The notes under the pieces were generated by a model, which searched no databases, was not told the DNA's origin, and saw nothing but the letters and a program-made list of their open reading frames with translations. From a virus, in the IMG/VR virus record IMGVR_UViG_3300044971_002284, positions 1 through 30,087 of that record: DNA of 30,087 nucleotides; one strand, given 5' to 3'. This document shows, piece by piece, positions 15,728-28,541 of the stretch (position 1 is the first letter of the stretch; each line of letters starts with the position of its first letter). The position numbers and the translations under genes are program-made.

Positions 15728-15750
15728 TGGACATGTCCTTAAACTGTCCA
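15728..15750 (+). promoter_or_regulatory. Structured RNA element family C, copy 1
   Basis: TGGACA and TGTCCA pair around the 11-base loop TGTCCTTAAAC. Compared with copy 2 an A-T pair replaces a G-C pair at one stem position. CCTTTTACTCAGTTCAAACC then leads to ATG 15773. Confidence 0.7.
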
Positions 15751-15772
15751 TTCCTTTTACTCAGTTCAAACC

Positions 15773-15910
15773 ATGACTCAACTCGATCCCAACTACAACG
15801 CTGACTTGCTTGATGCCATGGCCGACATGGCATACGAACAAGAGCAAGCCATGCGTGAAGAATATGAACTCAACCCACCTGAACAGGAGACTTATGATGA
15901 CCAAGCATGA
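15773..15910 (+). CDS. 45-residue acidic protein
   Basis: The product begins MTQLDPNYNADLLDAMADMA and is rich in Glu, Asp, Gln and Met, predicted helical. It is directly downstream of family C copy 1 and its linker, with no Shine-Dalgarno sequence. The next frame starts inside its 3' end. Strongly acidic small proteins in phages often bind host enzymes or mimic DNA, but nothing here proves that. Confidence 0.65.
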   Translation: MTQLDPNYNADLLDAMADMAYEQEQAMREEYELNPPEQETYDDQA

Positions 15911-16298
15911 ACACGACGATGACATCATCTTGCATGTCATCGTTATCATTTCAATCTTCATTCAAATCATTCTGGAGGCACTCCAATGTCTTACATCTCA
16001 GAACTCAAGAAGTTCTACCCCAAAACTTACAAGGTCCGTTACGCAGTCAACGCCTACAACACTCACAAGTACTTCGAACACGAAGACCCAACGGTCATCA
16101 CCGTCCACCAAACAACGCTCAACTACGGCGGTCCAGAGGAAGGTGGATGGTGGTACCAGCAAGGCAACCCAGTCCTCAGCCACTGCATCTTCTCCAAGAA
16201 GCAGGCGATCCAAACCTACGTCAAGTACTTCGAAGAGTACGAGATCGAAGGTCAGCCCAGTCTTGGAGACACCACAACAAGCTCAAACATTGAGCTAA
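15894..16298 (+). CDS. Membrane peptide whose frame overprints the next gene
   Basis: From the paired ATG codons at 15894/15897 the product reads MMTKHEHDDDIILHVIVIIS and continues as one clear membrane helix to about residue 31. The frame does not stop there: it runs through the 122-residue gene in another phase and yields a Ser/Thr-rich low-complexity tail, 134 residues in all. The N-terminal 31 residues look real and the tail looks like a shadow. Either the peptide carries an overprinted tail or a stop was lost. The region also holds the GGAGG site for the next gene. Confidence 0.4.
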   Translation: MMTKHEHDDDIILHVIVIISIFIQIILEALQCLTSQNSRSSTPKLTRSVTQSTPTTLTSTSNTKTQRSSPSTKQRSTTAVQRKVDGGTSKATQSSATASSPRSRRSKPTSSTSKSTRSKVSPVLETPQQAQTLS

Positions 16299-16354
16299 GT
16301 TTCTCCAACGGATACGCTCAAGTGTATCCTCAGATTCGTCCACACTATTGCTAA
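15986..16354 (+). CDS. Conserved phage hypothetical protein (RPHYC end)
   Basis: This 122-residue, Tyr-rich and mixed alpha/beta protein starts MSYISELKKFYPKTYKVRYA. It contains GGPEEGGWWYQQGNPV, a helix SKKQAIQTYVKYFEEYEI and ends YPQIRPHYC. The GGPEEGGWW and YPxxRPHY elements are familiar from hypothetical proteins in phages and plasmids with no set function. A textbook GGAGG lies seven bases before the ATG, inside the overlapping membrane-peptide frame, so this internal gene uses a normal ribosome site. Confidence 0.75.
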   Translation: MSYISELKKFYPKTYKVRYAVNAYNTHKYFEHEDPTVITVHQTTLNYGGPEEGGWWYQQGNPVLSHCIFSKKQAIQTYVKYFEEYEIEGQPSLGDTTTSSNIELSFSNGYAQVYPQIRPHYC

Positions 16355-16357
16355 GTC

Positions 16358-16600
16358 ATGCAAGCAACTGCTGTACCAAACCTCAGCATTAATCAACGCA
16401 ACATCTACATGTATTTCCTGAACCACAGGAAGAAGTACGGCAAGACTCCTTGCTTCGTACCAAAGTGTACAACTCAAGTATCAAGGCTTGATCAATATCT
16501 CAACGCCTTAACGAAACTTGAGCAGTACGGATTACTACGCGTTGAACGGTGCAGTGATAACTACACCGGCTGGATCATGACTGAACCTAGACAACACTAG
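16358..16600 (+). CDS. Small winged-helix-like protein
   Basis: The 80-residue protein begins MQATAVPNLSINQRNIYMYF. Its pattern is helix (NQRNIYMYFLNHRKKYG), helix, recognition-type helix (SRLDQYLNALTKLEQYG) and a beta wing (LLRVERCSDNYTGWIM). This order is that of a winged helix-turn-helix as in small MarR/PadR-type or replication-initiator domains. It starts three bases after the preceding stop. DNA binding is inferred from the fold pattern only. Confidence 0.6.
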   Translation: MQATAVPNLSINQRNIYMYFLNHRKKYGKTPCFVPKCTTQVSRLDQYLNALTKLEQYGLLRVERCSDNYTGWIMTEPRQH

Positions 16601-16617
16601 CGTTATACGCACATAAG

Positions 16618-16658
16618 CCTGGGCATCACCGACGTAAGTACGGTGTGTAAGTCCCAGG
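16618..16658 (+). promoter_or_regulatory. Structured RNA element family B, copy 2
   Basis: P1 CCTGGG pairs with CCCAGG. The joints are CAT on the 5' side and TGTAAGT on the 3' side. P2 CACCG pairs with CGGTG around ACGTAAGTA. It lies 18 bases after one stop and 21 bases before ATG 16679. Confidence 0.75.
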
Positions 16659-16678
16659 ATTCACCTCAACCTAAACCA

Positions 16679-16954
16679 ATGACCTATCCCGAAGTCAACT
16701 GGAAGAAGAACGAGTATCACCAACTGCAAGAGGTGGTGAACCTCCTCAAAGCAATCCAAGAACGTGAGAGCAAGCGCCATCAAATGGACGAGCATCTCAC
16801 TCCACATACCGCAGATGTGGTACTGGAAGTCATAGGCATGCTCGAAGATGAGATCGACTATGACCCAAGTCCTTCCGAAGGGGGCGAACCGCCTATCACA
16901 CTGGATGAAATGCATACTGCTGCATGGAAAGAACATCAAGCCATGCATAGCTAA
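16679..16954 (+). CDS. Acidic helical protein, unknown
   Basis: This protein is 91 residues from ATG 16679, beginning MTYPEVNWKKNEYHQLQEVV. A reading from the GTG at 16643 would translate the RNA element and is rejected. It has a long amphipathic helix (residues 12-35), then an acidic stretch (LEVIGMLEDEIDYD). The leader CACCTCAACCTAAACCA has no Shine-Dalgarno sequence. No recognised domain. Confidence 0.65.
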   Translation: MTYPEVNWKKNEYHQLQEVVNLLKAIQERESKRHQMDEHLTPHTADVVLEVIGMLEDEIDYDPSPSEGGEPPITLDEMHTAAWKEHQAMHS

Positions 16955-16999
16955 CCCCCCTGCACCCCCCGAAGGGAGTACCAGGAGCTAACCTTCTAT

Positions 17000-17020
17000 T
17001 AGATAAGACATACTTATCTG
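17000..17020 (+). promoter_or_regulatory. AT-rich leader hairpin
   Basis: TAGATAAG and CTTATCTG pair (one T-G end pair) around ACATA. It lies in the 140-base gap before ATG 17095, which also holds C-rich runs and TTGACT at 17051 without a matching -10. The linker CACTTACTCAACTCATCTCA precedes the ATG. Confidence 0.5.
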
Positions 17021-17094
17021 TTGCTCTCTGTTACTTCCCTTCCTTACCCCTTGACTACCCTGGTAGACTCAACACACTTACTCAACTCATCTCA

Positions 17095-17301
17095 ATGAAA
17101 GACAACACTCCTCGCATACCAGACTCACTGGATATGCAAAGACTTCAAGCCATGCAACTTGTTGCTCGCATGAAGGAAACATCAGATCGTCTCGGCATCG
17201 GATTCATCGGGGGCTTTATTGCCCCCAATGGAGAGAAATTCGTCATGTCCAATATGGACGATGAAGACTACAACGCACTCATGCCGGAGGATCTGAAATG
17301 A
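17095..17301 (+). CDS. Small protein, unknown
   Basis: This 68-residue protein begins MKDNTPRIPDSLDMQRLQAM. A charged N-terminal helix leads to a Gly-rich beta part (RLGIGFIGGFIAPNGEKFVM) and an acidic tail. The start uses the CTCAACTCATCTCA linker with no Shine-Dalgarno sequence. Its stop overlaps the next ATG (ATGA). No family recognised. Confidence 0.65.
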   Translation: MKDNTPRIPDSLDMQRLQAMQLVARMKETSDRLGIGFIGGFIAPNGEKFVMSNMDDEDYNALMPEDLK

Positions 17302-17369
17302 ATACCTTATTCATCGCAGTACTTTCTGTGATGATTATTTGTGGAACAATCATGATTTTAGAGAAATGA
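17298..17369 (+). CDS. 23-residue membrane peptide
   Basis: The product is a single hydrophobic helix, MNTLFIAVLSVMIICGTIMI plus LEK. Both ends overlap neighbours by the ATGA arrangement: its ATG with the preceding stop and its TGA with the next ATG. This double coupling strongly supports translation of such a short frame. It would sit in the inner or thylakoid membrane; its target is unknown. Confidence 0.65.
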   Translation: MNTLFIAVLSVMIICGTIMILEK

Positions 17370-17563
17370 CCAAGCGTTTGCCCATCAGCTTTGATCGCAC
17401 CATCCATGGTGTGAACATCACCGAACACGGTGTCAAATCTTATAGCAAAGCAGTGAAGCTTGGTCCTTTCCAAGTAACACTCAATGCTAGTCCGAATGGT
17501 GTCAAGGGATCAATCAGTATCCCTGGCACAGGACTTAGCATTCCAAACATTAAGATAATCTGA
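17366..17563 (+). CDS. DUF4236-like small protein
   Basis: This protein is 65 residues from ATG 17366, beginning MTKRLPISFDRTIHGVNITE. Its core KAVKLGPFQVTLNAS then VKGSISIPGTGLSI matches the pattern of DUF4236-type bacterial proteins (KSIKLGPGhRhNhS ... hPGTGLSY). That family is a short beta-rich domain of unknown function. It is coupled by ATGA to the membrane peptide before it. The reading from 17339 would overlap that peptide in full and is rejected. Confidence 0.65.
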   Translation: MTKRLPISFDRTIHGVNITEHGVKSYSKAVKLGPFQVTLNASPNGVKGSISIPGTGLSIPNIKII

Positions 17564-17569
17564 AGAATT

Positions 17570-17746
17570 ATGACCTATCAAGAACTTTTATCTCAACTTG
17601 AAGTAATGAGTCAAGAACAATTAAACATGGATGTAACTGTTTATGTCTGTGATACTGAAGAATATTATGCAATCCAAGATGAAATTGTTTTTGCCACAGA
17701 AGAATGTGGCGTACTTGATATAGATCATCCCATATTGTATTTGTAA
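17570..17746 (+). CDS. Conserved cyanophage-type small protein (MTYxELLxxL)
   Basis: The 58-residue product begins MTYQELLSQLEVMSQEQLNM and continues DVTVYVCDTEEYYAI to a C-terminal VLDIDHPILYL. The pattern MTYxxLLxxLxxLxxEQLxxDVTVY then D-hP-hL is common among short cyanobacterial and cyanophage hypothetical proteins. This gene is visibly more A/T-rich than those around it, which hints at recent arrival. Start support is a weak GAAG. It is followed five bases later by RNA element B copy 3. Confidence 0.7.
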   Translation: MTYQELLSQLEVMSQEQLNMDVTVYVCDTEEYYAIQDEIVFATEECGVLDIDHPILYL

Positions 17747-17750
17747 GTAA

Positions 17751-17777
17751 CTGGGCATCCTTACGGTGTAAGTCCCA
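17751..17777 (+). promoter_or_regulatory. Structured RNA element family B, copy 3
   Basis: P1 TGGG pairs with CCCA. The joints are CAT and TGTAAGT as in copy 2. P2 is reduced to CC-TTAC-GG. ATG 17806 follows after CACTTACTCAATTCAACTT. Confidence 0.6.
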
Positions 17778-17805
17778 AACCTTGTCCACTTACTCAATTC
17801 AACTT

Positions 17806-17994
17806 ATGTCTGCTTACACTGAAGACCTTACCATGTTTGATCGAATTAATCTGGCTGCCTGCGCACAGCGCAGAGCAACAGATAATCTATTTGATTCAAA
17901 TCGTTGGAATGGCGAGTACGACACAGCACGTTTGTGGATGAAGTATCGCCTCATCAAGACCACCACTTATTCGTACATTGACGAAGACTCATGA
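17806..17994 (+). CDS. Small protein, unknown
   Basis: This protein is 62 residues from ATG 17806, beginning MSAYTEDLTMFDRINLAACA; an upstream TTG at 17782 is not needed. It is helical with two Trp and several Arg (RWNGEYDTARLWMKYRL) and an acidic end. No Shine-Dalgarno sequence is present; the start follows the CAATTCAACTT linker. Its stop overlaps the next start as ATGA. Confidence 0.65.
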   Translation: MSAYTEDLTMFDRINLAACAQRRATDNLFDSNRWNGEYDTARLWMKYRLIKTTTYSYIDEDS

Positions 17995-18248
17995 CTGTCC
18001 TTGCAATCGAAGACACCCTATTCACTGACACCCATGTCACTGTTACAGCAGTTGTTGACGAAATGCGGTTGCTTTATCACGCAACTCATCTCGACCCTGA
18101 AGAGTGGGCTCCTGCATTGTGTACAACAACTGTTGAACTGGATCCAGAGGAACCAATCCCTCTTGATGAAGATGGCTTCTGTGCCTATCTTGATCAGCTC
18201 GATCCTCAATGGGAACTGGTCGAACGCGATGACTTCGATCTAGATTGA
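17991..18248 (+). CDS. Strongly acidic protein
   Basis: The 85-residue product starts MTVLAIEDTLFTDTHVTVTA. The second half is very rich in Asp and Glu (ELDPEEPIPLDEDGF, ending RDDFDLD). Translation is coupled to the gene before it by an ATGA overlap. The acidic surface is compatible with DNA mimicry or binding a basic host partner. That idea comes from composition alone. Confidence 0.7.
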   Translation: MTVLAIEDTLFTDTHVTVTAVVDEMRLLYHATHLDPEEWAPALCTTTVELDPEEPIPLDEDGFCAYLDQLDPQWELVERDDFDLD

Positions 18249-18274
18249 TCGACTAATCATCTGACCAATCGTCC

Positions 18275-18297
18275 TGGGCATGACGTTAAACTGCCCA
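18275..18297 (+). promoter_or_regulatory. Structured RNA element family C, copy 2
   Basis: TGGGCA and TGCCCA pair around TGACGTTAAAC. About 50 bases, from CCTGG through the linker CCTTTTAC to the ATG, align with copy 1. Confidence 0.75.
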
Positions 18298-18318
18298 TCC
18301 TTTTACCCATTCAAATCA

Positions 18319-20043
18319 ATGCAATTCCAACTCCCCTCCAACCTGCAAACCGAACTCCTTGCTTATGACCCAACACTGAAGGTGTTGGCTAAGCAGACTA
18401 GGACCGCATCAACCAAGAAGGCTAAGTATCCCCTCGGTAACATTCCGCACCTTATCCCACATAACGTGGTGCGCGAATCAGATCAGCAAGCTGCGATTGA
18501 TGATATCAACCAGCAGAAAGCACCTGATCGTTACAGAGTATTTACCACGCCTGTGGACGTAGCAACTCCACAGGCCAGACTCAAAGTCATTGCCATCTTG
18601 TATCACTACGAACAAGTATGGTACGCAGCATGGCTACCTCCCAAGCAGCAAGCTGATGAGTATGTGTATGGCTATGCCTACGCATTCAAGAACACAGCGG
18701 CTGCTGCTAAGACTGCACCCCATCACATCTGGACCAGCAAAGACAAGTGCATCGAGCACGAAGGTGCTCGTGGCGTGCAGACCTTTACTTATTCAATGAA
18801 CATCACCGAGGGTGATGTTCAATCAAGTGAAGGTAGTGGCTGGCGTGCCTACCAATGGCAAGCCTTTAATCTTCACTGCCAGAAAGGACGCGAGATTATT
18901 GAGCATTGCGTCCGTCCATACGAAGCAAGCCTACGGGAAAATATGCCCACATGGTCTGATTCCCGTGGATTGTTTGATCGTATCCGCTGCAAGAACGTCT
19001 TTGATGCTGCTGACATTCCTCCAAAAATGGCCGAGCTTCTTGATCTAGAGCAAGGTCTAACTGTTGATAACTTACTCAATGCAGCAATTGAATTCAACAA
19101 GAACCCTAACTTTCCATCATCAACGTTTTGTGTACTGGAAAGAATCAGTCACATCATTTCCAAGCCAGCAATCAAGAAGCTGCTGCAGGCAGAGCTTGAT
19201 CGCTGCACACTTGCATACAACAACCCTAATAACACTGAGCGCAAGCCAATTACTCAAGGCTTTAGAACCTTTGTCCACGTCATTGATTCCATTGACTGGA
19301 TCAACAGGCTATGGCCTGACTGCCCACTTGATTACTACCAAACCTATTACAAAGAACTTCGTTACATCAGACTGAGTCAAGTGCGTACAAGCAGCATTAG
19401 CTCCAACTCAAATGCATTTGTTAGTTGGTTGCGTGAACACATGCCTGTTGCATCGATGTTCACAATGCTGCGCAAACAGCTCGAACAACAAACCTTGACT
19501 GGTCGAGATGCGGAGGTTGGCTATGCACGCTTTAGTTTCTTTGAACTAAATGACACATTTTCCATGGCAATCCGTATCCTTGACCATGGCAAAGAACTTG
19601 CACCACCCAAGCGTTGGCGCATTGATGACTTCCATGACTATGTGCAAGCTGAATCCTGGAAGATCCAGAACCCTAACGAATCGTTGCGTCAAGATCTATT
19701 CCCTGAACCCATCAGGGTTACACGCAATGGTGAGACCTGGTCATTTTTCCAGCCTGTTGACACACATCAACTAGCTATGTGGGGCCAGGCCGTACGCAAT
19801 TGCGTCGGCTCTGCATCACACTATGCTGATGACATCAAGAAGCGTAAGCACTTCATCGTGCTGTGCATGATTGATGGTAAGCCCACATTCACCATCCAGT
19901 TGGTGGTTGACATGGGCCTGATGTCCGTCAAGCAAATCTCTGGTGTCGCTAACCAGCGGCTCACTGAAGACCAACGTGAGGCTTACACAGAAGCCTTCCG
20001 TGAGGTCTTGCAACAACGGGAGAAGCAGCTACAATCTGCCTGA
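18319..20043 (+). CDS. PcfJ-like protein
   Basis: This protein is 574 residues from ATG 18319, beginning MQFQLPSNLQTELLAYDPTL. The C-terminal 90 residues hold the recognisable part: MWGQAVRNCVGSASHYADDI, then HFIVLC, a strand pair ending TFTIQLVVD, and VKQISGVANQRLT. This is the pattern of the PcfJ domain (LxxCVGSYxxxhxxG ... hxhh ... QxxGxxNxxh), first noted on a conjugative plasmid and seen in phages, with function unsettled. The upstream 480 residues are unrecognised. A start upstream at 18280 would translate the family C hairpin and is rejected. It is a single-gene unit with RNA hairpins on both sides. Confidence 0.7.
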   Translation: MQFQLPSNLQTELLAYDPTLKVLAKQTRTASTKKAKYPLGNIPHLIPHNVVRESDQQAAIDDINQQKAPDRYRVFTTPVDVATPQARLKVIAILYHYEQVWYAAWLPPKQQADEYVYGYAYAFKNTAAAAKTAPHHIWTSKDKCIEHEGARGVQTFTYSMNITEGDVQSSEGSGWRAYQWQAFNLHCQKGREIIEHCVRPYEASLRENMPTWSDSRGLFDRIRCKNVFDAADIPPKMAELLDLEQGLTVDNLLNAAIEFNKNPNFPSSTFCVLERISHIISKPAIKKLLQAELDRCTLAYNNPNNTERKPITQGFRTFVHVIDSIDWINRLWPDCPLDYYQTYYKELRYIRLSQVRTSSISSNSNAFVSWLREHMPVASMFTMLRKQLEQQTLTGRDAEVGYARFSFFELNDTFSMAIRILDHGKELAPPKRWRIDDFHDYVQAESWKIQNPNESLRQDLFPEPIRVTRNGETWSFFQPVDTHQLAMWGQAVRNCVGSASHYADDIKKRKHFIVLCMIDGKPTFTIQLVVDMGLMSVKQISGVANQRLTEDQREAYTEAFREVLQQREKQLQSA

Positions 20044-20056
20044 GCCCGCACGGTTT

Positions 20057-20086
20057 ACCAGCCTTAGCCTCGATACTAGGGCTGGT
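20057..20086 (+). promoter_or_regulatory. 11-base-pair leader hairpin
   Basis: ACCAGCCTTAG pairs with CTAGGGCTGGT (one G-T) around CCTCGATA. It ends seven bases before ATG 20094, with TTCAACT between. There is no T-run for termination. It could block or place the ribosome, or end the upstream message. Confidence 0.65.
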
Positions 20087-20093
20087 TTCAACT

Positions 20094-20321
20094 ATGACCG
20101 ACTACACCGATGATCAGCTACTCGCTATGGCTATGGCCAACATTGGTGAGTACATCACTGACAACTCACCGCAGTACATCCTGATTGACGAAGATCCTCG
20201 CAATGAGGATGACTACGACACATGGGACTATGGCACTGAGCCATTACCCCAAGATCACACTTGGCACTCCACATCAATTGATGTAGAGGTAAGTCCAAGT
20301 GACGCAGACGTGACGGAATAG
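20094..20321 (+). CDS. Acidic 75-residue protein ending inside the tRNA gene
   Basis: The product begins MTDYTDDQLLAMAMANIGEY and is dominated by Asp, Glu and Tyr. Its stop codon TAG at 20319-20321 lies within the D-arm of tRNA-Leu, an 18-base overlap. The bases 20258-20301 also form family B copy 4, so the last 20 codons serve as structured RNA too. The start lies seven bases after an 11-base-pair hairpin and has no Shine-Dalgarno sequence. Function unknown. Confidence 0.65.
   Translation: MTDYTDDQLLAMAMANIGEYITDNSPQYILIDEDPRNEDDYDTWDYGTEPLPQDHTWHSTSIDVEVSPSDADVTE
20258..20301 (+). promoter_or_regulatory. Structured RNA element family B, copy 4, inside a CDS
   Basis: P1 CACTTGG pairs perfectly with CCAAGTG. 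The 5' joint is CA and the 3' joint GTAAGT, as in the other copies. P2 CTCCACATC pairs with GATGTAGAG with one C-A mismatch, loop AATT. It ends two bases before the tRNA acceptor stem. Confidence 0.65.
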
Positions 20322-20389
20322 GTATACGTAACGCACTTAAAATGCGTCGGCCATTGGCCTTGCGGGTTCGACTCCCGCCGTCTGCACCA
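20304..20389 (+). tRNA. tRNA-Leu (anticodon UAA), CCA encoded
   Basis: The acceptor stem GCAGACG pairs with CGTCTGC. The anticodon stem ACGCA/TGCGT carries loop CTTAAAA with anticodon TAA. The long variable arm (GGCC-ATT-GGCC) marks a class II leucine tRNA, and the T-arm GCGGG-TTCGACT-CCCGC is canonical. The 3' end ACCA is encoded. It reads UUA codons, which a GC-richer host would use less. It sits where other operons have a leader hairpin: the linker CACTTACTCAACTCAAGACC and ATG 20413 follow directly. Confidence 0.97.
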
Positions 20390-20412
20390 ATCCACTTACT
20401 CAACTCAAGACC

Positions 20413-20775
20413 ATGCAATTCTTTGCTGCTTTCAAGTCCCTCATCCCTGAGTTCCATGCTTATTCAGATGAGGACAACCGCTACAACCTTGGTGCCACCT
20501 GGACTGCAGCCGATGGCCTGAAGGACTATCACAACCTGGAGCTACGGTACATCCGTAACTCTGAGCGTCTTGCTCTCCAGGGTGAGCCCTGTCCTGATGG
20601 CAGCTGGCGCTACGTCGAGCCCAGTGGTGCAGTCCATACCATCAGCCCTGAACGTGCTAAGCACTTCATGGAGCAGACACAAGCTCATGCCACACTCATG
20701 GTTGGCATGCTTGATAAGTTACGAGATGCTGGCATCCTCGATCAGATGGTAGACACCACGGCAGAACCTGCCTAA
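20413..20775 (+). CDS. Small protein, unknown
   Basis: This 120-residue protein begins MQFFAAFKSLIPEFHAYSDE. The middle is beta-rich with Trp (GATWTAADG, DGSWRYVEPSG) and the C-terminus is an amphipathic helix (HATLMVGMLDKLRDAGIL). It has a leader of CTTACTCAACTCAAGACC directly after the tRNA and no Shine-Dalgarno sequence. Processing of the tRNA 3' end would leave a short 5' leader on this message. No known family. Confidence 0.65.
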   Translation: MQFFAAFKSLIPEFHAYSDEDNRYNLGATWTAADGLKDYHNLELRYIRNSERLALQGEPCPDGSWRYVEPSGAVHTISPERAKHFMEQTQAHATLMVGMLDKLRDAGILDQMVDTTAEPA

Positions 20776-20795
20776 GATCACTGCGGAATGTTCGG

Positions 20796-20823
20796 CCCCT
20801 GCGCAAGCGGGGGTCTTTTCTTC
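20796..20823 (+). terminator. GNRA-capped hairpin with T-rich tail
   Basis: CCCCTGC pairs with GCGGGGG (one T-G) around a GCAA tetraloop, followed by TCTTTTCTT. It follows the 120-residue gene by 20 bases and runs up to ATG 20824, so read-through or a later start is needed for the next gene. Confidence 0.75.
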
Positions 20824-21153
20824 ATGATCACTCCAGCTCAGTCAGAGATAGTTACAGATGTAACTGAACTCATTGCAGATTGTATCCCTGATTCCGAATG
20901 GGATCGGGTACGCAATGCAATCGTCGAACGCATTGTCGACAACATGCCATCACAAGTTTTGCTGCAGTTAACTGACAGCATCGATAACTTTGATCTGGCT
21001 GAACTAATCCTCATTACCCACTACAAGGAAGCACCAAATCTTGAGTTGATTGTTGACGCATTCAAACTCATTGGTGCTGAACAAACTGCTGACCTCCTCG
21101 ACTCACTCAACATTCAACAAGAGAATGGCATTCCAGAAGGCGATCCTTCCTGA
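20824..21153 (+). CDS. Acidic helical protein, unknown
   Basis: This protein is 109 residues from ATG 20824, beginning MITPAQSEIVTDVTELIADC. A start at 20788 would translate the terminator hairpin and is rejected. It is all-helical, with repeated hydrophobic heptads (VLLQLTDSIDNFDLAELILI) and net negative charge. Its end overlaps the zinc-ribbon gene by 29 bases. It heads a run of five more overlapping genes through thyX. Confidence 0.65.
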   Translation: MITPAQSEIVTDVTELIADCIPDSEWDRVRNAIVERIVDNMPSQVLLQLTDSIDNFDLAELILITHYKEAPNLELIVDAFKLIGAEQTADLLDSLNIQQENGIPEGDPS

Positions 21154-21529
21154 CTGTCCTCAATGCAATCAACCTGGACTCAGAGTTATTGAATCCAGGA
21201 AGACAGCGATGTCTACCAGACGACGCAAGAAGTGTGAATGCTGTGGCTACAGGTTTACAACTCATGAAGTTACAGCAGACTTCTTTGAAGAAGCCAAGCA
21301 CAACCTCTATCTTGTTGAACAACTCCACAAACTTATGAAGGGAACACCACTCACATCCGGGGTGGAACCACCCCCATCTGGGGTGAGTGCATCTGAATTC
21401 AAAGCACTCAACAAATGCAGTGACTGCCATCACAACATTGATGGTTGTCATTGCGCCTTTGACTTTCCTGAGTACGACACTGCTGAGTCGTACGACTGCA
21501 ATCACTTTCAACTCTGGAAATCCAAATGA
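21125..21529 (+). CDS. NrdR-like zinc-ribbon protein
   Basis: This protein is 134 residues from ATG 21125. CPQC at residues 11-14 and CECC at 37-40 bracket a basic STRRRKK patch, followed by GYRFTTHE. This copies the zinc ribbon of NrdR (CPxC ... RRRxxCxxCxxRFTTxE), the repressor of ribonucleotide reductase genes. The ATP-cone that should follow is absent; instead there is a second Cys/His-rich segment (CSDCHHNIDGCHC). It may be a DNA-binding regulator derived from NrdR, or a general zinc-ribbon phage protein. It is coupled to neighbours by overlaps at both ends. Confidence 0.7.
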   Translation: MAFQKAILPDCPQCNQPGLRVIESRKTAMSTRRRKKCECCGYRFTTHEVTADFFEEAKHNLYLVEQLHKLMKGTPLTSGVEPPPSGVSASEFKALNKCSDCHHNIDGCHCAFDFPEYDTAESYDCNHFQLWKSK

Positions 21530-21828
21530 CTACCAAGCGTCAATACGATTACATCATTGGTGATCGCGTAGCAGAGCGCCCTAAATCCCATGGCATTTTT
21601 GCTGTACGCAATGAAACCAAAGATCGTATTCAGCAGTACAGGTCCCAACGCTACGGCACTGTTGTTGGTATCAACCTGAAACCAAACAAGTCAGGTGCCA
21701 AGCAGAAGTTCCTACTAATCAGGTGGGATCATCTGCAGACTCCCACGGAACATGCACAGATGAGGATCTGTCCTGCTGATCAGCTTCAGCGTTTACAATC
21801 TGAGGGTTATGGATTCGAAGTCGAATGA
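21526..21828 (+). CDS. SH3-like small barrel protein, unknown
   Basis: The 100-residue protein begins MTTKRQYDYIIGDRVAERPK. The pattern GDRVAExP followed by RYGTVVGI, KFLLIRWDHL and a late RICPADQLQ is that of a KOW/SH3-like beta-barrel, as in several small phage proteins. Both ends overlap neighbours by ATGA. No named family can be assigned with certainty. Confidence 0.65.
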   Translation: MTTKRQYDYIIGDRVAERPKSHGIFAVRNETKDRIQQYRSQRYGTVVGINLKPNKSGAKQKFLLIRWDHLQTPTEHAQMRICPADQLQRLQSEGYGFEVE

Positions 21829-23009: not shown

Positions 23010-23028
23010 TGAACTCAAGCAGTGGCGA

Positions 23029-23145
23029 TCAGAAGGTCGCGGCGCTTTGTTTTTTTAATTCCATCACGGCATGCTTGGACTCCACATCCTTGCGTGCCAG
23101 CTTCTTCCGTTTGTCCACCAAGTAAACGATCAATGCTTTGTTCAT
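23029..23145 (-). CDS. 38-residue basic peptide in a reverse mini-operon
   Basis: The product begins MNKALIVYLVDKRKKLARKD and ends KKQSAATF, a Lys-rich amphipathic helix. A GGAGG lies nine bases before the ATG, and the ATG overlaps the stop of the DUF4278-like gene (ATGA). These two features support translation despite the size. It is convergent with thyX, about 20 bases away. Function unknown. Confidence 0.65.
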   Translation of the reverse strand: MNKALIVYLVDKRKKLARKDVESKHAVMELKKQSAATF

Positions 23146-23294
23146 TTGATTTGACCTCCAGTGACAAAGGGAAAGTAGCAAACGTTACGGTAGGTCAGGC
23201 AGAGCCAGGGACGGTGGGCTAAGTTCCACCAAGCTCTGTCTGCCTTGGCCTGATCCTCTTGGTTGTATTTGCAACCACGATACGTTAACGTCAT
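23142..23294 (-). CDS. DUF4278-like small protein
   Basis: The 50-residue protein starts MTLTYRGCKYNQEDQAKADR. The LTYRGxxY motif, repeated imperfectly as LTYRNVCY near residue 33, is the hallmark of DUF4278-type proteins widespread in cyanobacteria, function unknown. The longer reading from 23465 would overlap the opposite-strand gene and is rejected. A small hairpin (GTATC-AATA-GATAC, minus strand) lies just upstream of the ATG. It is one of the few reverse genes in this arm, suggesting acquisition as a cassette. Confidence 0.75.
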   Translation of the reverse strand: MTLTYRGCKYNQEDQAKADRAWWNLAHRPWLCLTYRNVCYFPFVTGGQIK

Positions 23295-23377
23295 GGTTTT
23301 AGTATCTATTGATACGGAAACTATATGACGATTGATGTATATGATGTCGTTCACCAGGTAACACAACTCAAGATTCA

Positions 23378-23674
23378 ATGAAAGGTTTTGGTTCAACTCA
23401 ACAACCAACGAAGTCAGCAGCGTATTGGATCGCTGCCTATGCCAAAGACAATGAAGATGAACCACTTGGTGTGTTCAAAAAAGTTCTGGCCTACAAACCA
23501 GGTCAGGACAAAGAACTCTTGATGATTCGTTACTGCAATTCAGTCATGAAGATCAACCGAAACATATGGGAGATGTTGGTCCACCAAGGACCAACTGAAA
23601 TCCCAGACTCTGGTGACCAAATTGTTTTACGATTATCCAGGGAAAAGTTTAAGGGCTCTGCTCAAGTAAACTGA
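23378..23674 (+). CDS. Small alpha/beta protein, unknown
   Basis: This 98-residue protein begins MKGFGSTQQPTKSAAYWIAA. Strand- and helix-like segments alternate (VFKKVLAYKPG, ELLMIRYCNSVMKI, QIVLRLSREKF). The ATG follows ACACAACTCAAGATTCA with no Shine-Dalgarno sequence. It is divergent from the DUF4278 mini-operon across an 83-base AT-rich gap that probably carries opposing promoters. No family recognised. Confidence 0.6.
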   Translation: MKGFGSTQQPTKSAAYWIAAYAKDNEDEPLGVFKKVLAYKPGQDKELLMIRYCNSVMKINRNIWEMLVHQGPTEIPDSGDQIVLRLSREKFKGSAQVN

Positions 23675-23697
23675 CTAACCATTACCACTAATCACCC

Positions 23698-23880
23698 ATG
23701 AACGCTGAAAACAAACGATTGATCAAACAGTTTGTACTGGATCGCCTGTGGAGCGACACAGATCAGCTTCGTCTTGATCTCGACGTTTATTCAATTACTC
23801 GCAGTATTGATCCGCTGGAAGCAATGGAGGAATACGAGTACCAAGTTGAGCGAATCCAAAAGATGCTTGCCTGCTACTGA
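23698..23880 (+). CDS. 60-residue helical acidic protein
   Basis: The product starts MNAENKRLIKQFVLDRLWSD and is predicted all-helical with two amphipathic stretches and a Tyr/Glu-rich middle. Its leader ACTAATCACCC just before ATG is nearly the same as the leader of the next gene (CCCAATCACCC), and neither has a Shine-Dalgarno sequence. No family recognised. Confidence 0.6.
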   Translation: MNAENKRLIKQFVLDRLWSDTDQLRLDLDVYSITRSIDPLEAMEEYEYQVERIQKMLACY

Positions 23881-23901
23881 AAAGCCGCTCCCCAATCACC
23901 C

Positions 23902-24261
23902 ATGACACAACAACATCTCATCGCCCCACCGCCTGAGCTGGTGCAGCAGTGGCGAGAAGCGCCCGAGTTCTCTGCATTGTCTCCGTGTGTGATGGTCACT
24001 TGCACCACTACCAAGCTGCAAGACATCGCTACTCAAGCTGCCCAATGGGGCGCAGACCAGGAGCTGGAGGCGTGCTGTGCGCTGATGGACGACTGGGGTC
24101 TTGATGGCGAAGACCTTATGCAGTGCCGCCGCCCCAAGCCGCCGAGCTTGAAGGAGCAGGCGCTGGATGATCTGCACATTGCTTTTGACAGGGGCTGTCT
24201 CAGCGAAGGACAGGCCGACACTATCCGCCGCGCCCTTGAACAACTCGCCGACAACGAGTAG
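23902..24261 (+). CDS. Conserved Synechococcus/cyanophage protein (PPPELVQQW type)
   Basis: The 119-residue protein contains PPPELVQQWREAP near the start. Later come TQAAQWGADQELEACCALMD and a C-terminal RRPKPPSLKEQAL. This order (PPPELVxxW ... ATxAAxWGADxELEACC ... RRPKPPSLKEQAL) matches a family I know from many marine Synechococcus genomes and their phages, function unknown. It is the best host clue in the window. The gene is richer in G and C than its neighbours, consistent with transfer from a host. Start leader is CCAATCACCC without Shine-Dalgarno. Confidence 0.8.
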   Translation: MTQQHLIAPPPELVQQWREAPEFSALSPCVMVTCTTTKLQDIATQAAQWGADQELEACCALMDDWGLDGEDLMQCRRPKPPSLKEQALDDLHIAFDRGCLSEGQADTIRRALEQLADNE

Positions 24262-24300
24262 TCACCTTCACTAACATTCCCGATCAGGAAGATGGACCTA

Positions 24301-24319
24301 AGTAAGTCCTTAAACTGCT
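24301..24319 (+). promoter_or_regulatory. Structured RNA element family C, copy 5 (weak stem)
   Basis: The loop AGTCCTTAAAC is close to copy 1. The stem is only AGTA with TGCT (one T-G pair). A wider TCAG/CTGA closure is possible. The ATTCAATTCAACTCAACC linker and ATG 24355 follow. Confidence 0.5.
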
Positions 24320-24354
24320 GATTAGTTTTTCTTATCATTCAATTCAACTCAACC

Positions 24355-25125
24355 ATGAAACTTCTCAAGTTTTCCAAGGGCAACGGCAAGCTCAGCAACC
24401 GCCTGATCTTTAGCCTGCCTGCTGGCTACTCATGCCCACACGCTGGTGTGTGCAAGACCTTTGCTGATCGCACTACTGGTGCCATCACTGACCTGCCTCA
24501 GTACACAGGTGTGACAGCTGAACGGGACTTCCGTTGCTTTGCTGCCATGGCAGAGGTACGGCCTAACGTGCGGGAAGCGCGTTGGCACAACTGGGATCTG
24601 CTGCGTGAAACCATTCACATGAATGGGAATCAAGCCATGTTGATTCGTGACTTGATCGACCTGTCTCTCCTGATGCATCCGCCCAAGAAGCTGGTTCGCA
24701 TCCATGAGTCTGGTGACTTCTGGACTGAGAACTATATGAAGGCTTGGATGATGGTTGCCCAGGGTAGGCCCGAACAAAAGTTCTATGCCTACACCAAGTC
24801 CCTTGGTATGTGGTACAATCTGCGTGACATGATTCCACCCAACTTCTATCTCACTGCATCGCACGGTGGTACGCTCGACTACCTAATGGAAAAGTATCCC
24901 GAAGTATTCACCAGGGTTGCTCACGTTGTATACACAGAAGAACAAGCCGCAGAGCTTGGTCTTGAGATTGACCATGACGACAGCCATTGTCTTGGTGACA
25001 AACCATTCGCACTACTGGTCCATGGTTCCCAGCGGGCTGGTAGTGAGGCAAGTCAAGCCATCTCTCAACGTAAGAAAGAAGGTGGATTTGTGGGATACGG
25101 CAAATCAAATCAGAAGACAAGCTGA
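24355..25125 (+). CDS. Gp88-family phage protein
   Basis: This 256-residue protein has an ordered set of motifs matching the 'gene product 88' family of phage proteins. These are LPAGYSCPHAGVCKTF near residue 22, FRCFAAMAEVRPNVREARW near 60, VRIHESGDFWTENYMKAW near 118, KFYAYTKSL near 142, YLTASHGGTLDYL near 162, and LGLEIDHDDSHC near 200. FALLVHGSQRAG near 222 completes the set. Cys residues in the first two motifs and the final DDSHC could bind metal. The family's biochemical role is unknown to me. It stands alone between a family C element and a 13-base-pair hairpin. Confidence 0.8.
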   Translation: MKLLKFSKGNGKLSNRLIFSLPAGYSCPHAGVCKTFADRTTGAITDLPQYTGVTAERDFRCFAAMAEVRPNVREARWHNWDLLRETIHMNGNQAMLIRDLIDLSLLMHPPKKLVRIHESGDFWTENYMKAWMMVAQGRPEQKFYAYTKSLGMWYNLRDMIPPNFYLTASHGGTLDYLMEKYPEVFTRVAHVVYTEEQAAELGLEIDHDDSHCLGDKPFALLVHGSQRAGSEASQAISQRKKEGGFVGYGKSNQKTS

Positions 25126-25140
25126 AGACACTTGCGTTAT

Positions 25141-25175
25141 TTGAAAGATCGGATAACATCTGTCCGGTCTTTCAA
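25141..25175 (+). terminator. 13-base-pair hairpin between the Gp88 and polymerase units
   Basis: TTGAAAGATCGGA pairs with TCCGGTCTTTCAA (one T-G) around TAACATCTG, then TTATTC and ATG 25182. The T-tail is weak, so it may end the upstream message only partly or mark a processing site. Confidence 0.6.
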
Positions 25176-25181
25176 TTATTC

Positions 25182-25415
25182 ATGTCGTACGTCATTGCCA
25201 CTTGGAAGGAGGGTAAGGCATTTGCCATTACTGCCTGCTCTTCTTCCAATCAATTCCAATTAATTCCATTAGATTCAGAAGTAGCTCTGAACAAGATTTT
25301 CTCCCATCCTTACCGGGCTGGTGCTCAGTCGATCTTGGCGTGGATTAACAACAATGACAGCAAACTTGCCGGTGCACAGCTCTCAATTCAAGATGAAGCC
25401 AGATTCCGTAAATGA
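25182..25415 (+). CDS. Small protein upstream of DNA polymerase
   Basis: The 77-residue protein starts MSYVIATWKEGKAFAITACS. It is beta-rich in the first half and helical later (GAQSILAWINNNDSK). The polymerase start lies inside its last 23 bases in another frame, so the two are likely translated together. No family recognised; a polymerase accessory role is possible by position only. Confidence 0.6.
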   Translation: MSYVIATWKEGKAFAITACSSSNQFQLIPLDSEVALNKIFSHPYRAGAQSILAWINNNDSKLAGAQLSIQDEARFRK

Positions 25416-27213
25416 ATCCTGGTTGATCTTTGACATTGAAACCAATGGCTTGTACGACCAGGCAACGGAAGTCTTTTGCATTGTTATTTATGACATCAAC
25501 AAACAACAGACTTTTAGTTATGGGCCTGATCGCACTGCTGATGCTCTTGCTCATTTGGCAACCGCTGATGTACTCATTGGTCACAATGTGATTTTTTATG
25601 ACGTTCCTGTTCTGCAAAAGCTGCATTCATTTGTCAGCAAAGCACGCATCATTGACACGCTCATTTGCACCAGATTGATCTGGCCCAAAGAAATCCTGGA
25701 GGATCTTGACAATGAACAATATCCGCAGGTTCCCAAGGCGAACCGTGGATCCGCATCACTTAAGGCCTGGGGATGGCGCCTGGCCAATCACAAGATCACG
25801 TTCAAAGACTTCTCCGAATTTTCTCAGGAGATGTTGGACTACTGTGTCCAGGACGTTATGGTCACCCGTAGCCTTTGGCAATTCATCGTCAAACAAAACT
25901 ATCCAGAGTCATCGCTCCGGCTTGAGCACGACTTTGCTCTTGCCATTAACAAACAAATTAGAGCAGGTTTTCCTTTTGATGTTGATGCATGCCTTGATCT
26001 CGTGGATGGTCTTAGAGCAAAACAGAAAGAACTGGAATCTCATCTGAAGGAACTCTTTCCGCCCATTAAGCACGAAGAGATCTTTGTGCCCAAGGTCAAC
26101 AACACCAAACGTGGTTATGTCAAAGGACAACCTTTCACCAAAGTCCGCTACGAAGAGTTCAATCCAGGATCTCGTGATCAGATTGTTAATCGACTCGGCG
26201 CTAAGTACGGATGGAAACCACAGAGCTTTACTGAAAAAGGAAATCCAATTGTTAATGATGAAGTACTAGAGCAGCTTCCGTATCCTGAAGCACAACCACT
26301 GGCTGAGTACATGCTTATAAAGAAGAGGCTCGGTCAAATCGCTGATGGAAACAATGCTTGGCTCAAGCTTGTCAACAACGATGATCTCTGTATACACGGC
26401 GATCTGGTTACTAACGGCTGCATTACTGGGCGCTGTTCACACCGTTATCCAAACATGGGTCAGGTCCCGGCAGCTTACTCACCGTATGGAAAAGAATGCC
26501 GAACTTTGTTCCATGCTCCTTACGGGTGGGACCTTGTTGGTGTTGACGCTAAAGCACTTGAACTTCGTTGCCTCGCTGGATACCTTGCCGTCTGGGATGG
26601 AGGTGAGTACGCCACTCTGGTGACAGACGAATCGATTGACATTCACACCTACAACCAACAGCAGTTTGGTGTGGAGACCAGGGACATCAGCAAACGTTTG
26701 CTGTATGGAATGCTCTATGGATGTGGTGCGGTGAAGGCTGGCACTATCATTGATCCGAATGAAAAAGATCCAGAAGTTCTGCGTCAACTAGGAAGATCTG
26801 CAATTAATTCATTCATGACAGGTGTACCAGCGCTCAAGAAATTGAAGCAACAACTAGAATACACTGTGCAAGAACGTGGATTCCTGCGTGGATTGGATAA
26901 GCGTGCACTCTTCTGCCGCTCTGAATTCAAAGCATTGAATGTATTACTCCAGGCAGCTGGTGCTCTCATCATGAAGCAGGTGGTCATCAACCTGCATAAC
27001 AACCTGGAAGGACTGGGACTTGTACATGGCAAGGACTGGATCCAACACGCCATGGTTCACGATGAAGTACAGCTGTCTTGTCCCAAGGATCTGACTGCAA
27101 CAATCCAAGAACAAGCTTTGCTTGCATTCCCGCAAGCCCAAGACTTCTTTGGATTCCGCTGTAAGATTGAAGGCGACTCACGCGTCGGCTCGAACTGGGC
27201 ACAGACACACTGA
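25393..27213 (+). CDS. T7-like family A DNA polymerase with 3'-5' exonuclease
   Basis: This protein is 606 residues from ATG 25393; the upstream in-frame ATG at 25321 adds a segment that overlaps the previous gene and looks non-coding. Exonuclease sites: DIE (Asp14, Glu16), NVIFYD (Asp70) and YCVQD (Tyr150, Asp154). Polymerase: motif A VGVDAKALELR (Asp385); motif B RDISKRLLYGMLYG with Arg430, Lys434 and Tyr438; motif C HDE at 556-558. Whole segments track T7 gp5 (NPGSRDQI, KGNPIVNDEVLE, NWAQTH). Tyr in the O-helix, as in T7, allows dideoxynucleotide use. It is the replicative enzyme; no thioredoxin-loop judgement is possible by eye. No primase-helicase is in view. Confidence 0.96.
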   Translation: MKPDSVNESWLIFDIETNGLYDQATEVFCIVIYDINKQQTFSYGPDRTADALAHLATADVLIGHNVIFYDVPVLQKLHSFVSKARIIDTLICTRLIWPKEILEDLDNEQYPQVPKANRGSASLKAWGWRLANHKITFKDFSEFSQEMLDYCVQDVMVTRSLWQFIVKQNYPESSLRLEHDFALAINKQIRAGFPFDVDACLDLVDGLRAKQKELESHLKELFPPIKHEEIFVPKVNNTKRGYVKGQPFTKVRYEEFNPGSRDQIVNRLGAKYGWKPQSFTEKGNPIVNDEVLEQLPYPEAQPLAEYMLIKKRLGQIADGNNAWLKLVNNDDLCIHGDLVTNGCITGRCSHRYPNMGQVPAAYSPYGKECRTLFHAPYGWDLVGVDAKALELRCLAGYLAVWDGGEYATLVTDESIDIHTYNQQQFGVETRDISKRLLYGMLYGCGAVKAGTIIDPNEKDPEVLRQLGRSAINSFMTGVPALKKLKQQLEYTVQERGFLRGLDKRALFCRSEFKALNVLLQAAGALIMKQVVINLHNNLEGLGLVHGKDWIQHAMVHDEVQLSCPKDLTATIQEQALLAFPQAQDFFGFRCKIEGDSRVGSNWAQTH

Positions 27214-27216
27214 ACC

Positions 27217-27393
27217 ATGAGCAACAAAACTACTGTTGAACTTACAGGAAAAGCAATTGGCTCTTTGCTTGCTTTTGTTTTGTTTTCTGTGTTGATTAAG
27301 TACGCTTTTGATTTTACCTGGTTTCAAGGATGTGTCCTTGGATATTTGTTTTGGTTAATCCGAGAAGGTATCCAAACCATTAAGAGTAATTAG
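27217..27393 (+). CDS. 58-residue membrane protein
   Basis: The product begins MSNKTTVELTGKAIGSLLAF and has two hydrophobic segments, about residues 14-32 and 36-47, separated by a short polar turn. It is A/T-rich and starts three bases after the polymerase stop. The pattern suits a small two-helix membrane protein. Family C copy 3 follows 13 bases after its stop. Confidence 0.65.
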   Translation: MSNKTTVELTGKAIGSLLAFVLFSVLIKYAFDFTWFQGCVLGYLFWLIREGIQTIKSN

Positions 27394-27405
27394 TAATTCG
27401 TCCTC

Positions 27406-27426
27406 AGGTATGACGTTAAACTGCCT
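27406..27426 (+). promoter_or_regulatory. Structured RNA element family C, copy 3
   Basis: AGGTA pairs with TGCCT (one T-G) around TGACGTTAAAC, the same loop as copies 2 and 4. It precedes the SSB start at 27448. Confidence 0.7.
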
Positions 27427-27447
27427 TAACACCAACTTCTCAAAACA

Positions 27448-28278
27448 ATGAACATTGCTGATGTCTGCGCTGTCCTCATGGAACAACCCCGTGAGGTATT
27501 CACCAGTGCGACTGCATCCAACCTGCGTGCAGTAGTTAATCTACCTCCGGTTGGTTCCAACAAAGCTCCAACTCCAGTCGAACTCAATGTCTACGGAAAA
27601 GCCTGCGATCGGTTCCGTCACAACAAAGCAAACGACCGTCTACTTATTTACGGCTCCAAGCTACGTTTCGACGTTAACACCCGAGCGTATTCGTTACATG
27701 GAGGAGTTGTCCACCAGATCACGGATGAGTTTCCAATCCTCAATCGCGTCATCCTCTCGGGACGTTGCGTGAAAGATCTGGATCTCAGTGATCCTCGTGT
27801 GTTTAAAACAACGCCTGATGGCTTGATGATTTGTAACCAGAGCCTTTCTGTTTACATGGGTAAGAATCAGGCTGATCTGTTTAACTTCTATGCCATCAAT
27901 ACGGCTAACGATAAGTTAAACAACGCAGAGATCATTGCTAACTTCACCCGTAAAGGTGTGGGCATTACAGTGTCTGGTCGTCTGGTCACCGATGCCTGGA
28001 CCGATAAGCAAAGCAATGAACGCAAGATCAACACCAAGATCCAGGTGAATCAAATCACCTTGGCTCCCAAAGCTGATGCCACCAAGAACACTGAGTCTCA
28101 GACAAAACCTGTGCAAACCAACACACCGGTTGCACCAAGCTCAAGTGACGCTAGCCTATGGGGCGCAGCTAACGCACCACAACCTACTGATCCCTGGACC
28201 CACGCCTCTGGCGGTGGTCTGCCTGACCTCCCTGGTCAATACTCCAACTCACCTTCATTCGACGAAGTTCCTTTCTAA
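27448..28278 (+). CDS. Single-stranded DNA-binding protein
   Basis: This 276-residue protein has a beta-rich body consistent with an OB-fold region (VILSGRCVKDL, LSVYMGKNQADLFNFYAI, GVGITVSGRLVTDAW and KINTKIQVNQITL). A Pro/Ser/Gln/Thr linker of about 60 residues follows. It ends in SPSFDEVPF, the acidic tip that SSB proteins use to recruit partners. It is longer than typical bacterial SSB. It follows the polymerase unit and starts after family C copy 3 with no Shine-Dalgarno sequence. SSB genes are often autoregulated, which makes the leader hairpin of interest. Confidence 0.85.
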   Translation: MNIADVCAVLMEQPREVFTSATASNLRAVVNLPPVGSNKAPTPVELNVYGKACDRFRHNKANDRLLIYGSKLRFDVNTRAYSLHGGVVHQITDEFPILNRVILSGRCVKDLDLSDPRVFKTTPDGLMICNQSLSVYMGKNQADLFNFYAINTANDKLNNAEIIANFTRKGVGITVSGRLVTDAWTDKQSNERKINTKIQVNQITLAPKADATKNTESQTKPVQTNTPVAPSSSDASLWGAANAPQPTDPWTHASGGGLPDLPGQYSNSPSFDEVPF

Positions 28279-28508
28279 TGACACTCCCAAGAGTCAACAA
28301 CTACACGCTCTTGCAAGAGAGCGATAACTCCAGTTGCATCTACAAGTTCCAGGGTGATTACTTTCCTGATGTACTTGTTCACATGGTGGACTTTCTAAAG
28401 GGAGTTGGTTTCCTTGAAGAGACAATCCATCGTGGAATGTACGATGCTGCTGAGGAGTACTTCAAGTACCAGCAAAGCATCTGCTCTGAGTCAAGTCCAT
28501 TTGACTAA
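28278..28508 (+). CDS. Small acidic protein coupled to SSB
   Basis: The 76-residue protein begins MTLPRVNNYTLLQESDNSSC. A beta-rich start (CIYKFQGDYF) is followed by a helix (VLVHMVDFLKGVG) and an acidic, aromatic tail. Its ATG shares one base with the SSB stop (TAATG), so translation is coupled. No family recognised. A role with SSB in replication is inferred from coupling. Confidence 0.7.
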   Translation: MTLPRVNNYTLLQESDNSSCIYKFQGDYFPDVLVHMVDFLKGVGFLEETIHRGMYDAAEEYFKYQQSICSESSPFD

Positions 28509-28518
28509 GAACACGTCC

Positions 28519-28541
28519 TGGGTATGACGTTAAACTGCCTA
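28519..28541 (+). promoter_or_regulatory. Structured RNA element family C, copy 4
   Basis: TGGGTA pairs with TGCCTA (two G-T pairs) around TGACGTTAAAC. It lies 11 bases after one stop and 21 bases before ATG 28563. Confidence 0.7.

Follow-up and report, generated by a model that had tools for sequence, protein, structure and literature searches.

Small RNA pseudoknots that act in cis from a leader are already a known kind of element, and several described systems bear on the one reported here. The closest is the leader of gene 32 in phages T4, T2 and RB69, an H-type pseudoknot of about 28 nucleotides (nt) that lies between cistrons, precedes the gene for the single-strand DNA-binding protein (SSB) and is followed on its 3' side by an A/U-rich, unstructured stretch (PMC535899, PMC3014915). 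In a 2010 review this pseudoknot was considered possibly the sole viral example in translational autoregulation (PMC3014915). STAXI RNA (RF01728) is also composed of simple pseudoknots and is often found near SSB genes (PMC2864571), and flaviviral exoribonuclease-resistant RNAs (xrRNAs) are small, protein-independent folds that act as mechanical blocks and are able to stop bacterial RNase J1 (PMC5760640). The element described here, which is likewise an intercistronic H-type pseudoknot of about 28 nt with an A/U-rich stretch on its 3' side, occurs five times in the window, the whole stretch of virus DNA that was analysed (30,087 nt; IMG/VR record IMGVR_UViG_3300044971_002284, positions 1-30,087), and one of these copies stands before an SSB gene.

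All five copies (Table 1) share a single layout: a 4-bp stem 1 (S1), a loop 1 (L1) beginning with C, a stem 2 (S2) of 4-6 bp, a 1-nt loop 2 (L2), the partner strand of S1 (S1'), a loop 3 (L3) that reads UUAAAC, and the partner strand of S2 (S2'). A first-pass annotation of the window had described them as leader hairpins at 15728, 18275, 24301, 27406 and 28519 with a conserved 11-base loop, and the loops and stems that it gave are indeed present in the sequence. The hairpin form was not upheld, since the S1 pairs cross the stem in every copy and thus form an H-type pseudoknot: the S1 words of copies 1-5 (GGAC, CGTC, GGAC, CGTC and CGTC) lie just 5' of the stem noted earlier, and their partners (GTCC, GACG, GTCC, GACG and GACG) are the first bases of the supposed loop. 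The conserved part of that loop is therefore L3, and its first part is a covarying S1 strand. The word TTAAAC is by itself ordinary in the window, with 17 matches against a chance expectation of 13.8. As the first-pass annotation had it, every copy is flanked by a stop codon and the ATG that follows it, all on one strand. The distance from knot to ATG is 21-22 nt, or 35 nt for the Gp88 copy; the upstream stop is 5 nt from the SSB and 338-residue copies (TAG 27391-27393 and TAA 28506-28508, respectively) and 31, 21 and 32 nt from the 45-residue, PcfJ-like and Gp88 copies. The sole phage record matching the window SSB protein, that of Synechococcus phage S-EIV1 (55% identity), carries copies before its homologues of the PcfJ-like (41%), Gp88 (68%), SSB (55%) and DUF5895 (79%) proteins, two of them strict and the PcfJ and DUF5895 copies with an altered L3.

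Pairing evidence and known RNA classes

Judged by covariation, the element is an H-type RNA pseudoknot of 26-30 nt. The loci examined were drawn from pattern scans and represent samples, not prevalence. When S2 and L3 were fixed and S1 was left free, the scan gave 107 stretches; contexts too close to a locus end were dropped (83 were kept for this test and 80 for the S1 mispair count below), and S1 was perfect in 63 of the 83 contexts and had at most one mismatch in 79. This test is unaffected by sampling limits because the underlying scan was complete. Among the matches listed in each of the following cases, a second, later sample had a perfect S1 in 51 of 70 non-redundant contexts and at most one mismatch in 69, with 36 S1 pair types; a single pattern that prescribes S1 and L3 and leaves S2 open except for one base gave a perfect 5-bp S2 in 70 of 85 contexts; with another S1' and both partners mostly free, both helices were perfect in 20 of 78 contexts, the misses mostly failing both helices jointly, as expected for chance matches; and with L3 free, S2-paired contexts carried TTAAAC in 40 of 60 cases and NNAAAC in 57. 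Pooled counts (164/190 for S2, 31/97 for both helices and 116/146 for TTAAAC) mix patterns, some of which fix pairs, and the single-pattern recounts are preferred.

In an alignment of 48 rows chosen regardless of S1, together with two rows from the window, 91.3% of S1 cells were paired and compensatory changes were found at all four S1 pairs, in agreement with the earlier view of a selected RNA structure with compensating stem changes. The covariation score was reached by none of 500 shuffles, the number of pairs with both bases changed by two, and the number of further pair types by 30. G-U mispairs far outnumbered A-C mispairs (15:2 in S1 and 35:5 in S2), indicating that the sense RNA of the neighbouring genes is the strand that folds; covariation and this asymmetry together rule out chance repeats or an element acting at the DNA level. 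A search of IMG/VR with a 15-base core found at least one complete strict knot in 89 of 119 loci, among the matches listed. A combined descriptor (S1 pairing, C, S2 pairing and NNAAAC) gave 342 distinct matches in 439 viral loci, compared with 0-2 matches for each of eight permuted or replaced L3 words and 1-2 for each of the other L1 letters, a contrast that overstates the effect because the 439 loci were picked by patterns holding parts of the element. Pairing was required of all 342 matches and of the 340 contexts and 289 non-redundant copies.

The first-pass annotation had assigned the element to no named class, and this holds within Rfam. Rfam 15 gave no match over any knot in the window (raising E to 10 added six weak matches elsewhere) and none over the element in six further loci. 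Rfam models do not score pseudoknot pairing, and a short family could be missed. Among open-licence papers in PubMed Central, judged by title and the start of the abstract, none was found that describes the element. That it constitutes a new RNA class is strongly supported. The T4 gene 32 leader, as paired here, has A as L1 and an S2 of 7 bp, and it lacks both L2 and the AAAC of L3; it is known for one gene and is bound by SSB, whereas the present element precedes many genes. The T4 knot was rejected as a relative, as the descriptor does not find the T4 leader and the conserved letters (the C of L1, NNAAAC and L2) are not common to both. STAXI RNA differs in sequence and layout, being a tandem array with UUCG hairpins and other conserved letters. 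Identity with STAXI was likewise rejected: its model, which works elsewhere (of 246 genomes examined from one bacterial family, 44 give a match), has no match in the window, and the knot descriptor finds none in 10 STAXI loci. In one of the loci examined, L507, an EFASI RNA (RF02957) was seen at 140-287, about 1.2 kb from a STAXI RNA. For xrRNAs, which have a ring-like fold and lie in viral 3' untranslated regions, no common sequence or topology with the knot is claimed.

Frameshift and readthrough pseudoknots are also H-type, but the present element has no common slippery codons. Frameshift pseudoknots start a few nt past the A-site codon, a spacing similar to that of the present knots. Recoding was rejected: the frame-0 extension past the stop is short (median 18 codons), slippery codons are not shared, and the knot goes with the gene after it. 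In 28 of 92 copies with a stop at 5 nt, one other frame stays open over at least 50 codons; it was read as belonging to the next gene.

Table 1. Pseudoknots, the genes that follow them and other features of the window
Feature	Position	Strand	Details
Pseudoknot 1, before 45-residue protein	15723..15750	+	S1 15723-15726/15735-15738, L1 15727, S2 15728-15733/15745-15750, L2 15734, L3 15739-15744
Pseudoknot 2, before PcfJ-like gene	18270..18297	+	S1 18270-18273/18282-18285, L1 18274, S2 18275-18280/18292-18297, L2 18281, L3 18286-18291
Pseudoknot 3, before Gp88	24294..24319	+	S1 24294-24297/24306-24309, L1 24298-24300, S2 24301-24304/24316-24319 (4 bp only), L2 24305, L3 24310-24315
Pseudoknot 4, before SSB	27399..27426	+	S1 27399-27402/27412-27415, L1 27403-27405, S2 27406-27410/27422-27426, L2 27411, L3 27416-27421
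Pseudoknot 5, before DUF5895 protein	28514..28541	+	S1 28514-28517/28526-28529, L1 28518, S2 28519-28524/28536-28541, L2 28525, L3 28530-28535
45-residue protein, after pseudoknot 1	15773..15910	+	ATG 15773; no match in Pfam and PHROG searches
PcfJ-like protein, after pseudoknot 2	18319..20043	+	ATG 18319; PF14284
GP88 family protein, after pseudoknot 3	24355..25125	+	ATG 24355; PF17338
SSB, after pseudoknot 4	27448..28278	+	ATG 27448; PF00436 / phrog_44
DUF5895 protein, 338 residues, after pseudoknot 5	28563..29579	+	ATG 28563; PF19247
Hairpin AGTAC-atca-GTACT between stop (15691) and pseudoknot 1	15703..15716	+	link to element uncertain
Hairpin TTCC-cgatca-GGAA immediately 5' of pseudoknot 3	24277..24290	+	link to element uncertain
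tRNA gene	20304-20386		no other Rfam match in the window passes the threshold

Gene context and phage distribution

The knot is part of the downstream gene's leader. Relatives of the window SSB were collected by a protein-only search that is blind to the knot (45 loci, 44 with upstream DNA), and a knot was found before SSB in 31 loci by the strict descriptor and in 44/44 by a relaxed one, the remaining 13 having a longer L1 or a weaker S2 by eye. Copies in relatives, on whose presence and kept pairing the first-pass annotation had staked its reading, are thus abundant, and pairing was lost in none of the 44. The immediate upstream gene, identified in 42 of these loci, belongs to 12 clusters, and the retention of the SSB knot while upstream neighbours vary argues that it belongs to the downstream gene. 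Where the knot follows the polymerase gene, its distance from the polymerase stop is 5-7 nt in 11 loci, 16 nt in one and 82 nt in one; in the other 31 loci the polymerase stop is 118-848 nt off, with no knot within about 110 nt after it, and in one of these, L531, the gene adjacent to the knot also clusters with polymerases. For the 156 knots with both neighbours assigned, H(up|down) was 1.23 bits as compared with 0.46 bits for H(down|up), meaning that the downstream gene predicts the upstream one less well than the other way round.

The open reading frames (ORFs) called 3' of the knot form 129 clusters. A family search, which covered 62 of the 113 cluster representatives listed, matched downstream ORFs of many kinds, among them SSB, scaffold, PhoH, thymidylate synthase and integrase, and a scaffold gene follows the knot in three named phages. 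In 200 of the 289 copies the genes called on the two sides share one strand, which places these copies inside an operon; only 9 of 340 copies fall inside ORFs of more than 150 codons.

Stops that close at least 40 open codons end 5 nt before S1 in 91 of the 289 non-redundant copies and 6 nt before it in 30, with one or two stops at each distance from 0 to 4 nt and at most 13 at each of the remaining distances as far as 30 nt. The stops include TAA, TAG and TGA, the spacer between stop and knot is not conserved in sequence, and the 122 copies whose stop lies at 5 or 6 nt follow 53 upstream protein clusters. In the second sample (n=70, among the matches listed) 19 stops were found at 5 nt, nine at 6 nt and five at 4 nt. 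A lesser peak was also seen for TTAAAC sites that are not in the strict set (54 at 5 nt and 36 at 6 nt), because 131 of these control sites carry a relaxed knot and themselves peak at 5-6 nt (35 and 23); the 2,396 TTAAAC sites without a knot were flat, with 19 and 13 at 5-6 nt as against 8-21 at other distances. A ribosome at the upstream stop would often stand directly against the knot. On the other side, start codons without a Shine-Dalgarno motif peak 20-22 nt 3' of the knot, and in the 110 copies that lack this motif G makes up 5.6% of the leader between knot and ATG. The knot is thus often as near as it can be to both flanking ribosome positions, which tight packing or functional contact would explain alike. 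A constant upstream hairpin was rejected as part of the motif, its enrichment being weak and found mainly where the stop is not adjacent. Terminator-like hairpins with a U-tract stand directly 5' of the knot in L448 and L449 (Enterococcus) and L496 (phage D6E), and tandem knots with different stem sequences occur in L017 and L026 and, by eye, in L489.

Copies were found in phages of Firmicutes, Actinobacteria, Cyanobacteria and Alphaproteobacteria, on the coding strand and between genes. Named phages were searched by blastn of single copies against INPHARED, with subsequent use of the annotated regions and raw sequence. Nine of 14 such loci hold a strict copy (in L495, elsewhere than the BLAST match): Lactobacillus phig1e (before the scaffold gene), the thermophilic phage D6E (between portal and scaffold), Roseobacter SIO1 (after ribonucleotide reductase), Lentibacter ICBM1 (between ribonucleotide reductase and glutaredoxin), Corynebacterium phi673 (after an exonuclease), Mycobacterium Labelle, Synechococcus S-H35, Rhizobium RHph_Y65 and Nostoc NMeng1 (followed by an annotated pseudo-tRNA). 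The other five (L485, L489, L490, L493 and L498) fit by eye only, having a weaker helix or a longer L3; they comprise Staphylococcus Sushi (between minor capsid and scaffold), the crAss-like phage cr7_1 (two copies before primase), Arthrobacter Molivia (between SSB and tRNA-Gly), one microvirus record and Microcystis Mwe-JY13. A match in coliphage phiEcoM-GJ1 was rejected as outside the descriptor.

Matches in bacterial genomes (39 loci) were at about the chance level for 17 fixed bases, yet S2 was perfect in 11 of 41 contexts. Two Enterococcus contexts, with one mismatch each, precede a putative phage scaffold gene. One low-identity plasmid match was found in 5,426 E. coli genomes, a search made with one knot variant and of low sensitivity, and weak matches were seen in 20 of 72,556 plasmid records. 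In four contigs of metagenome-assembled genomes the end of a tiny ORF overlaps or lies next to the knot, at L452 (7014), L453 (325), L471 (minus strand, 6753) and L475 (minus strand, 823). These ORFs have a VAHC-like motif when translated by eye, and L475 has an in-frame TGA near the Cys position of another tiny ORF, possibly encoding selenocysteine; the four loci may represent a separate case.

Possible roles of the pseudoknot

A phage protein common to all these phages is unlikely as the partner of the knot, given the 129 clusters of downstream ORFs and phages of four bacterial groups, and the partner is therefore probably host machinery. The suggestion of the first-pass annotation that the element is an operator for one phage protein is accordingly weakened by the unrelated hosts and the downstream clusters, and also by the six tRNA-adjacent copies described below. 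As the knot accompanies the downstream cistron and persists after a stop, a hairpin or, rarely, a promoter, the role that we tentatively favour, by analogy, is that of a self-sufficient, mechanical 5' boundary that would shield the downstream transcript from decay. Transcription starting at the knot, or cleavage of a polycistronic RNA upstream of it, would leave the knot as a structured 5' end; such an end could block 5'-end-dependent decay by RNase J, or by the 5'-sensing RNase E or Y, so that the downstream cistron would be longer-lived and its product made in larger amounts than those of its operon neighbours. The knot would then do in phages of bacteria what exoribonuclease-resistant RNAs and 5' mRNA stabilizers do elsewhere; the in vitro block of bacterial RNase J1 by a folded flaviviral RNA offers a precedent (PMC5760640). 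Somewhat more doubtful is the wider proposal of a general-purpose, protein-independent 5'-boundary pseudoknot across Caudoviricetes, perhaps also Microviridae, that would set the expression of chosen cistrons within compact operons and be placed as near as the terminating ribosome allows. It has long been asked how genes that lie side by side in a compact phage operon come to be expressed so differently, and the question is made directly testable by a sequence-recognisable element of about 28 nt that recurs before SSB, scaffold, primase and tRNA genes in isolated phages, including those of Lactobacillus, Roseobacter, Corynebacterium, Mycobacterium and Synechococcus and, in weaker form, Staphylococcus. 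It would be an RNA class to add to phage annotation and perhaps a portable expression part.

Transcription from the knot is suggested at some loci: in L116 the RNA made from a sigma70-like promoter would begin at a Gp88 knot, and in L045 each of three different knots has a TATAAT-like box 4-5 nt upstream, with starts predicted at or just inside the knot. Several observations weigh against a 5' boundary. A general promoter was not seen: among the 155 copies that have no stop next to them, TATAAT-like boxes show a weak excess 13 nt upstream (nine copies, as compared with 0-7 at the other offsets), and in L043, L066 and L216 a TATAAT-like box lies 3' of the knot. In six contigs a tRNA gene starts 3-9 nt after the knot (6/289) as compared with about 0.07 expected, a value scaled from a 60-nt figure, and these cases count against the boundary because RNase P would cut the knot off the tRNA. 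The adjacency was seen in the first sample and in two named phages, one of them with an annotated pseudo-tRNA, and was absent within 10 nt in the second sample (0/70), which contains few tRNAs. A crude gene caller placed 42 of the 289 copies within a called ORF, 31 of them antisense. A match in a Vibrio phage also folds, though antisense to an annotated short ORF; Vibrio is not known to have RNase J, and a restriction of the element to RNase J hosts was dropped on account of this match. The 5-nt stop spacing, finally, would suit a ribosome-facing role equally well.

One such role would be that of a ribosome insulator, in which the knot, held against the terminating ribosome, keeps post-termination ribosomes off the next ribosome-binding site or tRNA. 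The stop peak at 5 nt (91) and 6 nt (30) behind 53 upstream clusters, its replication in the second sample, its absence at the 2,396 knot-free TTAAAC sites, the similar spacing of frameshift pseudoknots and the tRNA cases are all consistent with this. On the other hand, 155 of 367 copies, including three of the five in the window, have no qualifying stop within 12 nt, some copies lacking an adjacent stop may begin the transcript, the spacing may simply be as tight as packing can get without unfolding the knot, and post-termination scanning is reported to be rare (PMC10666635); insulation appears unlikely overall. A translational operator like that of T4 gp32, to which SSB could bind before spreading over the G-poor leader, is rather less probable again. 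It would account for the knot before SSB in 44/44 relatives, and the 5.6% G leader recalls the unstructured stretch after the T4 knot (PMC535899); the 129 downstream clusters, the tRNAs and the unrelated hosts speak against it, as do the variable S1 and S2 sequences, which would leave a binder mainly L1 and L3 to read, and the lack of the conserved letters in the T4 knot.

RNA polymerase would be a universal partner, and an antiterminator, pause site or weak terminator could draw on T being modestly enriched over the first 6 nt past the knot in the non-cyano group (40% vs 27%) and on the copies directly after a terminator-like hairpin in the Enterococcus loci and D6E. The average T content after the knot is, however, far below that of a terminator U-tract, there is no room for such a tract where a tRNA begins 3-9 nt later, and 200 of 289 copies are inside an operon, leaving an action on polymerase improbable, marginally more so than an operator. 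Protection of the 3' end of the upstream transcript, in the manner of repetitive extragenic palindromic (REP) sequences, would explain the fixed distance to the upstream stop, and a knot before a tRNA would remain as the 3' end of the mRNA after RNase P cleavage; this is very unlikely, as the knot is found by the downstream gene, not by the polymerase gene, where other genes separate the two, which already tells against it for the SSB copies. Least probable of all is a ligand-sensing riboswitch: a compact leader pseudoknot with conserved unpaired letters resembles one, but the downstream genes are of many kinds and share no coherent pathway, no expression platform was seen, and no Rfam match covers the element.

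Other recurrent elements

A second leader element, consisting of CTGGGC, a variable inner part and GTAAGTCCCA, lies before other genes at 16619-16657 and 17751-17777 of the window. GTAAGTCCCA occurs 99 times in the searched loci, with the same layout in most of the 14 occurrences listed, and the element is probably another RNA family of these phages. At 17051-17069 the window contains TTGAC(A/T)-N5-9-GGTAGACT, which is found 39 times in the searched loci and lies about 20-45 nt upstream of the pseudoknot in L031, L049 and L064; it resembles a phage promoter or operator in which the spacing is unusually short.

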